Assembly: GCA_902580275.1 (NCBI GenBank)
Contig: CACHJZ010000002.1
Location: 1-64,000 of the forward strand
Direction: 5' to 3'
From: an uncultured Pelagibacteraceae bacterium
GTDB lineage: Bacteria > Pseudomonadota > Alphaproteobacteria > Pelagibacterales > Pelagibacteraceae
Length of the DNA: 64,000 nucleotides
Shown: positions 7,365 through 8,597 of the stretch, one piece after another
Position numbering within the stretch: the stretch's first letter is position 1
How the letters are laid out: each line of letters opens with the position of its first letter
Notes under the pieces: generated by a model
The model's database searches: none
What the model saw: only the letters and a program-made list of their open reading frames with translations
What the model was told of the DNA's origin: nothing
Program-made: the position numbers and the translations under genes

Positions 7365-7823
7365 ATGAATAAAAGAAAATTTATTAAGTCAATATTCTCA
7401 ACTTTAGCTTTACTTTTTTTATTACCAAAATCTCTACTAGCAAAAGTGGAAAAAAAAATAATTAACAATTCACTTACTGAAGAACAAAAGAAAATAATGT
7501 TTAAAGAGGGTACAGAAAGACCATTTACAAGCAGTTTAAATTATGAAACTAGAGAAGGCTTTTATCACTGTGCAAACTGTAATGCTAAACTTTTTTCTTC
7601 AAGCGCAAAGTTTGACAGTGGAACAGGGTGGCCATCGTTTTCTGAAGCTCTACCAGGTGCATTTAAAACAAAAGTTGATTATTCATTTGGTATGAAACGT
7701 ATTGAATACCATTGTGCTAATTGTGGAGCACACCATGGTCATGTATTTGATGACGGACCCTCAGAAACAGGAAAAAGATTTTGTAATAACGGTCTTTGTT
7801 TAATCTTTATTCCATCTAATTAA
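7365..7823 (+). CDS. msrB: Exported peptide-methionine (R)-S-oxide reductase MsrB
   Basis: The 152-residue protein carries an N-terminal signal or anchor (hydrophobic residues about 10-26) and then an MsrB domain. The two zinc-binding CxxC pairs are CANC near residue 68 and CANC near residue 117, flanked by the family text SGTGWPSF and GHVFDDGPSETGKR. The catalytic Cys lies in KRFCNNGLC, where most members have RYCINS. MsrB reduces methionine-R-sulfoxide in proteins; the leader suggests a periplasmic site. Its end overlaps the convergent 147-residue gene by 4 bases. Confidence 0.9.
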   Translation: MNKRKFIKSIFSTLALLFLLPKSLLAKVEKKIINNSLTEEQKKIMFKEGTERPFTSSLNYETREGFYHCANCNAKLFSSSAKFDSGTGWPSFSEALPGAFKTKVDYSFGMKRIEYHCANCGAHHGHVFDDGPSETGKRFCNNGLCLIFIPSN

Positions 7824-8263
7824 TCTATAAAATTAAGCTTAATTAATTTTTCTTTTTTTATTTCTTTACACCAAAGCTCATATGTTTCACACATTCTCCA
7901 AACTAGACCAAAGGCATTTTGTGAATTTGATAATGGAAAAGAACTTTTTGCAAAATAAGCTTCATTATTTTCTTTAAATTGCTTAATAACTGTATTCTTT
8001 TGCAAGTTAAGCAAATCTATTGTTTCTTTTGGAATTTTATTCCCAGTTTCAAAGTTAATAAAATTATTCTCTTTTATTTTAGCAAAAAGATTATCATGAA
8101 AATTCCCTTTTTTAATTTCATTAAATTCTTTTGTTGCCAAAAATCTTTCTACAAGTTCAATGTTTGTTATTTGTGGATCTGATTCTTTAATTTTAATTAA
8201 TTGAAAATAAATAGATTCTGCTAAATAGAGCATTAATGGTTTTGAAGTATCTTTTTTTTTCAT
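7820..8263 (-). CDS. Unknown 147-aa protein behind a Fur-like box
   Basis: The protein is soluble, Lys-rich and mostly helical by composition, with a C-terminal segment containing NAFGLVWRMCETYELWCKEIKKEK (Trp and Cys rich; quoted in part as LVWRMCETYELWCKE). No signal peptide, membrane segment or known domain is recognised. The start codon is 13 bases from a perfect 7-1-7 palindrome of Fur-box type, and the divergent neighbour is a small zinc-ribbon gene behind a second such box. This suggests metal-dependent control of both, which is inference. The ATG at 8263 is the only good start. Confidence 0.65.
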   Translation of the reverse strand: MKKKDTSKPLMLYLAESIYFQLIKIKESDPQITNIELVERFLATKEFNEIKKGNFHDNLFAKIKENNFINFETGNKIPKETIDLLNLQKNTVIKQFKENNEAYFAKSSFPLSNSQNAFGLVWRMCETYELWCKEIKKEKLIKLNFID

Positions 8264-8275
8264 TTTATTTTTTGT

Positions 8276-8290
8276 TAATGATAATCATTA
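8276..8290. promoter_or_regulatory. Fur-like 7-1-7 operator, proximal to the 147-aa gene
   Basis: TAATGATAATCATTA is a perfect 7-1-7 inverted repeat. It has the GATAATCATT core of the classical Fur box. Its edge is 13 bases upstream of the start codon at 8263, where a bound repressor would block initiation. A second copy lies at 8332-8349. Confidence 0.65.
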
Positions 8291-8331
8291 CCAACTAAAT
8301 TTTTTTTTATTAATTTTATGCATCTTTTTTA

Positions 8332-8349
8332 TGATAATGATTATCATTA
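8332..8349. promoter_or_regulatory. Fur-like operator with two overlapping 7-1-7 palindromes
   Basis: TGATAATGATTATCA at 8332-8346 equals the 7-1-7 Fur consensus TGATAATnATTATCA. The offset palindrome TAATGATTATCATTA at 8335-8349 repeats the motif of the box at 8276 with one central base changed. Overlapping 7-1-7 units are how dimer pairs of Fur bind. It lies 68 bases upstream of the 59-residue zinc-ribbon gene and also upstream of the divergent gene. Confidence 0.75.
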
Positions 8350-8417
8350 GTTTTGAGATTTATTATCAAAAATTTAAAAAAAGTTGAAAAATAATTTTTT
8401 TTTCTTATTTTATTCAT

Positions 8418-8597
8418 ATGGAACTAGAAACTCACAACTGTAGAAAATGTGGTTTAACAATATCGGCAACATGTTCAAAATGTCATAGAGTTGTTGATGT
8501 TAAGAAACTTGATGACGGATGTATCGTAAAAGTTACTAAGTGTGGGGATTGTGCTAATACCCCAGTAATTAAAGATATTTGTTCTAATCAAGCTTAA
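8418..8597 (+). CDS. Small zinc-ribbon protein, 59 aa
   Basis: A 59-codon ATG frame encodes a cysteine-rich peptide with three CxxC pairs: CRKC (residues 8-11), CSKC (19-22) and CGDC (42-45), plus single Cys at 35 and 55 and a His at 23. The spacing fits one or two zinc-ribbon or rubredoxin-like knuckles. It is downstream of the Fur-like operator and divergent from the 147-residue gene. The ordered Cys pattern makes chance unlikely. Function is unknown; metal sensing, metal storage or protein interaction are possible. Confidence 0.7.
   Translation: MELETHNCRKCGLTISATCSKCHRVVDVKKLDDGCIVKVTKCGDCANTPVIKDICSNQA

Follow-up and report, generated by a model that had tools for sequence, protein, structure and literature searches.

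Several small iron-sparing factors are controlled by Fur and are active when iron is short, including the RyhB-type RNAs and three small basic proteins of Bacillus subtilis. For the SAR11 group, which includes some of the most abundant bacteria in the ocean, a comparable promoter is that of sfuC, which encodes an iron-binding protein of iron uptake. In HTCC1062, sfuC mRNA is reported to rise 16-fold under iron limitation (PMC2864753). A survey of HTCC1062 is described as finding no matches to three Fur-box models, and it proposed relaxed, non-classical motifs (PMC3090418).

Here we describe a gene for a 59-amino-acid protein whose promoter has tandem boxes of the same 21-bp palindrome class as the sfuC promoters of SAR11. 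The two kinds of promoter differ in layout: at sfuC, the usual distance between boxes is 22 bp and the first box seems to overlap the -10, whereas the box pairs of the 59-amino-acid protein gene are mostly 28-61 bp apart and lie upstream of the -35. The likeness to the iron-sparing factors is one of description only and, unlike them, the protein has eight cysteines. Based on comparisons of sequences, we propose that this gene is probably a single-gene, Fur-controlled unit of SAR11 and an iron-dependent companion of KatG peroxide defence.

The window (the whole stretch of DNA that was analysed, 64 kb) lies at the start of contig C2, in a genome of 1.18 Mb. The 154-base divergent gap of the original prediction is there, between ATGs at 8263 and 8418, and is 87% A+T. 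The features in and around it are:

7820..8263, minus strand: gene for a 147-amino-acid protein, the divergent neighbour; a real open reading frame with a family of its own
8273..8293, no strand: distal Fur-type box, a 21-mer around a perfect 7-1-7 palindrome, centred at -135 from the ATG at 8418
8332..8352, no strand: strong Fur-type box with two overlapping perfect 7-1-7 palindromes, centred at about -76
8354..8368, no strand: weak third box, TGAGATTTATTATCA, 13/15, centred at about -57
8384..8389, plus strand: predicted -35, TTGAAA; TTG followed by two non-G letters is found within -40 to -27 in 77/77 upstream sequences
8406..8411, plus strand: predicted -10, TATTTT, after a 16-bp spacer and 6 bases before the ATG; identified by column conservation
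8418..8597, plus strand: gene for the 59-amino-acid protein, the putative regulated gene, with cysteines C8, C11, C19, C22, C35, C42, C45 and C55

The palindromes are at exactly the coordinates that had been claimed: TAATGATAATCATTA is a perfect 7-1-7 palindrome at 8276-8290, and TGATAATGATTATCA, a perfect palindrome at 8332-8346, is overlapped by TAATGATTATCATTA at 8335-8349. The weak third box was absent from the original prediction. It is where other clades have their proximal box. The proximal box is centred at -55/-56 in 70 of the 80 loci described below; in the window's clade (ten loci), it is centred at -76.

Under an order-2 Markov model of the window, about 0.003 perfect copies are expected for each 15-mer, and one and two were seen. 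If up to two mismatches are allowed, then there are six matches per pattern against about two expected, which is not rare. Across the 1.18-Mb genome, the perfect AATGATNATCATT core occurs at three places, of which two are here and the third is within a reading frame. With at most one mismatch, the core occurs at 21 places, and 17 of these are inside reading frames; the other four are the two boxes reported here, one site before sfuC, and one at the start of hemB. A Fur-like box, TTCCAGTGATAATCATTCTCA (G000:C2:188278-188298, L040), overlaps the hemB start as called. A PF05118 (Asp_Arg_Hydrox) gene follows it after 76 bases, and related genes are also found in the katG clusters of many relatives.

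Conservation of the boxes and the protein family behind them

When the 59-codon reading frame is compared with five orthologues, the substitutions are mainly at third codon positions, and therefore it is a real gene. Among 101 genomes we found 27 matches to the protein, namely 23 orthologues (L001-L023) and four sister forms of 63 amino acids (L024-L027). In genome_contigs, tblastn confirmed 307 relatives, of which we kept the best 80; all of these are from Pelagibacteraceae, Pelagibacterales, or Ca. Pelagibacter. The two sets partly overlap (for example, G009 corresponds to L051 and G037 to L058), and the 23 include more distant orthologues.

We counted as a box any match of at least 16/20 to a generic 20-position consensus (TGATAATGATNATCATTATCA) within 160 bp upstream of the gene. 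The boxes are Fur-type, as had been proposed, and they are conserved at this position: 75 of the best 80 relatives and 16 of the 23 orthologues have two or more. The 12.8 kb of upstream sequence from the 80 loci contains 155 boxes, whereas the rest of these loci, 747 kb in all, contains 17. When 20,000 random windows were scanned, 54 had one box and none had two. Among the 23 orthologues, 20 have at least one box and three have none at this threshold; in the seven with fewer than two boxes, the second box or both score 13-15. Although the gap is rich in A+T and matches with two mismatches are common, the conservation of the boxes upstream of the gene refutes the idea that the palindromes arose by chance, and we consider the probability of this to be practically negligible.

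The distance between the two best boxes at each locus, regardless of their scores, is 22 bp in one of the 80 loci; in the other 79 it is 28-31, 49-51, or 58-61 bp. We make no claim of strict helical phasing (about 3, 5, and 6 turns), as the overlap of palindromes allows some 3 bp of slack and the related genomes are not independent. Boxes, promoter, and gene form a block that is found in nine or more different neighbourhoods. These neighbourhoods (whose gene names were mostly read from the proteins) include a katG cluster with a PF05118-like gene and DUF2061; dapB-dnaJ; the vicinity of a YjbQ-like gene; and others. The window's own neighbourhood has msrB and a GMC oxidoreductase.

The two divergent genes had been proposed to form a metal-regulated module, with boxes expected before the orthologues of both. 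This holds for one gene of the two. The 147-amino-acid family is present in 36 of the 101 genomes, and it shares the boxes only in the window's arrangement, which is found in 10 of the 80 loci. Of the 15 copies of the 147-amino-acid gene that we examined, boxes were present only at the two that adjoin the 59-amino-acid gene; the 13 copies elsewhere had no box of 15/20 or better (the best was 14/20 in the two that were rechecked). Because these copies have none, the boxes belong to the 59-amino-acid gene, and the neighbour's sharing of them looks incidental to the window's clade. Furthermore, the presence of the two genes is not associated: the 147-amino-acid gene is found in 16 of 23 genomes with the 59-amino-acid gene and in 20 of 38 without it (p = 0.28). 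We therefore abandon the two-gene module. The 147-amino-acid protein matches no Pfam family, and its match in NCBIfam is far below the cut-off. At two loci (L080 and L083), a 138-amino-acid member of its family is downstream of the 59-amino-acid gene, which is a second, different arrangement. Also, in several genomes, a member of this family and sfuC are on one contig, separated by some 24-34 kb (examples are G012:C1:838902, G004:C4:113636, and G046:C4:68052).

The 59-amino-acid protein has three CxxC pairs along with C35 and C55, and all eight cysteines are invariant in both alignments that we made (10/10 and 26/26 sequences). From this pattern, our guess is that the protein might have two four-cysteine metal sites. 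The protein had been described as a tiny zinc ribbon. The CxxC pairs are indeed there, but the assignment to a family was only a guess from the cysteines and is not supported: in neither Pfam nor NCBIfam does a family score above its curated cut-off, and the best Pfam match, the double zinc ribbon (PF12773, DZR), which also has CxxC pairs, scores 15.1 and 19.4 bits against a cut-off of 27.3. The statement that this is not a known iron gene is supported. Among solved structures, there was no convincing relative (the best E value was 0.11), and the AlphaFold2 model has a mean pLDDT of 57, a confidence that is too low to use for the fold. We also considered a phage or viral origin and rejected it: 53 pattern matches in viral_contigs yielded no confirmed relatives, and phage records contained no match to the protein (best PHROG E value 0.055).

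The 63-amino-acid sister proteins have a CCGxDMxC tail. They occur in 4 of the 101 genomes, and none of the four shows the 59-amino-acid form. The two forms have a common N-terminal half, which includes two CxxC pairs (identity is 32-39% in the three sisters that were aligned), but the C-terminal cysteines of the sisters differ. The sisters also lack paired Fur boxes: L024 has one match of 12/15, L025 has two overlapping matches of 12-13/15, and there is no box match upstream of L026 or L027. The RCKP rubredoxin-like family (NF045720) has similar CxxC pairs, but its match is far below the cut-off and is to the 63-amino-acid sister only. In G011 the gene order is dnaJ, a 272-amino-acid gene, the 63-amino-acid gene, and dapB, which puts the sister gene near the slot of the 59-amino-acid gene in G016, G032, and G035.

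Fur, Zur, or Irr as the regulator

The genome encodes three proteins of the Fur family. One is a strong match to FUR, one is Irr-like and adjoins katG, and one is Zur-like and lies in the znu cluster (the subfamily names are our reading of the proteins). We think that Fur is very likely the regulator of the 59-amino-acid gene, because the same motif is found in front of sfuC, which is induced by iron limitation in SAR11, and because the box in front of znuA is different. The negative outcome of the HTCC1062 survey counts against this reading. The sfuC gene of the window's genome carries a Fur-type box as well. With the generic consensus, 27 of 30 sfuC genes have an upstream box; in the remaining three, the start was either missed (one gene) or misplaced (two genes). 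A motif drawn from the sfuC family itself matches 43/43 at 15/21 or better, which is circular.

Given that there are three Fur-family genes and that the box does not reveal the metal specificity of its reader, the boxes could instead be read by Zur, by Irr, or by a manganese-responsive regulator. We consider this to be very improbable. In the one genome that was read at this site, that of the window, the upstream region of znuA contains the perfect palindrome TGTTATAATATAACA (L176, G000:C2:97900-99900), which is likely to be a Zur box. The boxes of the 59-amino-acid gene differ from it, and we rejected Zur for this reason. We also rejected Irr: an ICE-type box precedes the 59-amino-acid gene in 11 of 80 loci, which is near the background of 485 in 5,000 random windows. 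The motif in common with sfuC also argues against another reader.

Co-occurrence with KatG

The association of the 59-amino-acid gene with KatG is new to this analysis and was missed by the original prediction. katG is among the three nearest genes on one side in 48 of the 80 loci. Across 61 genomes of the genus, 22 have both KatG (PF00141) and the 59-amino-acid gene, one has the gene only, seven have KatG only, and 31 have neither. In other words, KatG is present in 22 of 23 genomes with the gene and in 7 of 38 without it (Fisher test, p = 2e-9, ignoring phylogeny). The one genome with the gene but without KatG is 72% complete, and among the 11 genomes that are at least 90% complete, eight have both, three have neither, and none are discordant.

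Because the gene adjoins katG in 48 of the 80 loci, part of this co-occurrence is linkage. Where the gene is away from katG, KatG is still present in 9 of 10 genomes of the genus and in 28 of 30 further genomes, and both of the misses are in genomes of about 0.8 Mb. (These 30 are the 32 such loci among the 80 minus L051, which is G009, and L058, which is G037.)

As controls, photolyase is present in 15 of 23 genomes with the gene and 18 of 38 without it (p = 0.20), and the widespread sfuC in 20 of 23 and 24 of 38 (p = 0.075). The result for sfuC implies a bias towards more complete genomes among those with the gene, so that positive associations are somewhat inflated. We also counted independent pairs on quickly built trees. 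On an rpoB tree with 29 rows, four or five pairs went the same way and none the opposite way (p = 0.06, not significant alone). On an SfuC tree with 43 rows, which is not a species tree, six to eight pairs went the same way and at most one the opposite way (median p = 0.016, range 0.008-0.125). Incomplete genomes and a shared ecology may lie behind part of the KatG association.

It could also be that the 59-amino-acid protein serves in iron stress generally and is functionally unconnected to KatG, and that both are co-inherited markers of offshore, low-iron lineages. katG is reported from most offshore SAR11 genera (PMC12636525), which would fit, as would the p value of just 0.06 from the rpoB tree and the inflation by incomplete genomes. 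On the other hand, the gene is found in nine neighbourhoods, KatG is retained when the two are apart, and the control accessory gene is not associated. On balance we find these markers a somewhat unlikely explanation, and we retain the iron-dependent link to KatG as our preferred reading. The boxes and the co-occurrence with KatG together suggest that the protein is an unrecognised part of the link between iron supply and peroxide defence.

What Irr would do at katG is taken from other alphaproteobacteria. All 45 of the readable katG upstream regions match the Irr consensus at 11/14 or better, as compared to 485 of 5,000 random windows. The distinct katG boxes that were listed score 12-13, are mostly TTTAGAATCATTATAAA or TTTAGAATAATTATAAA, and are within the likely core promoter. 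For instance, in L084, L099, and L125, TTTAGAATCATTATAAA is in or beside this promoter; in L087 and L121, the best Irr-type match is a second box that is further upstream. In the three loci in which both were found, an irr-like gene immediately precedes katG, and it does so in the window's genome as well, where a similar Irr-type box was seen, by eye only, in the katG gap.

Promoter geometry and the direction of control

We aligned 77 distinct upstream sequences of the 59-amino-acid gene by anchoring them on the ATG. All 77 have a TTG-type -35 near -34, and most have a TATTTT-like -10 at -12 to -7. Just four of the 77 have a motif that resembles a ribosome-binding site. Since the predicted -10 is so close to the ATG and such motifs are rare, the transcript is likely to be leaderless, starting at the ATG.

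Repression by Fur usually involves a box that overlaps the -35 or the -10, and this is not obligatory. At the 59-amino-acid gene, the boxes end upstream of the predicted -35 and overlap neither element. Because they lie upstream of the -35, unlike at sfuC, where the first box seems to overlap the -10, plain repression by occlusion of the promoter is not obvious, and this placement would suit activation and repression equally well. We lean towards repression by Fur as fairly probable and take activation by Fur to be a real possibility.

More specifically, Fur might activate the gene in iron-replete cells from boxes that serve as upstream activating sites, and the protein would then be a partner of KatG or a co-made protectant against iron stress. 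In 70 of 80 loci, the proximal box is at -55/-56, upstream of a conserved -35, which is consistent with this. So is the Irr-type box at the katG promoter: given the role of Irr in other alphaproteobacteria, katG would be on when iron is ample. There is also precedent in Caulobacter, whose Fur is reported to be a positive regulator as well, with some direct activation, but the predicted Fur sites there are at 16 repressed genes and at just 3 activated genes (PMC3751524). The variable spacing of the second box, from 22 to 61 bp, also counts against activation. This fuller account of activation is possible, if not what we would expect.

Whichever the direction, iron-loaded Fur would bind the 21-bp boxes, of which there are two or three, and these immediately precede a predicted promoter of the sigma-70 type (TTGAAA-16-TATTTT); transcription would probably start at the ATG. 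Under repression, which we prefer, iron shortage would cause Fur to release the 59-amino-acid gene while Irr turned katG down, and the protein would protect the cell or spare iron when KatG cannot be made. Under activation, the protein would be made when iron is ample, together with the haem enzyme KatG. This specific physiological role of the protein beside KatG is rather doubtful. Still more speculative, and rather improbable as a whole, is a two-regulator iron switch in which Irr shuts katG and Fur frees a leaderless mRNA, whose protein takes over from KatG or spares iron at its expense. If true, then some of the most abundant ocean bacteria would spare iron as RyhB-type RNAs do, but by means of a protein.

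While the survey of HTCC1062 is described as finding no classical Fur boxes (PMC3090418), classical or near-classical boxes mark a gene family here. If our reading is right, then iron status could be read in metatranscriptomes from this short promoter, and the balance between the cost of iron and the damage from peroxide in streamlined ocean cells would gain a defined test gene.
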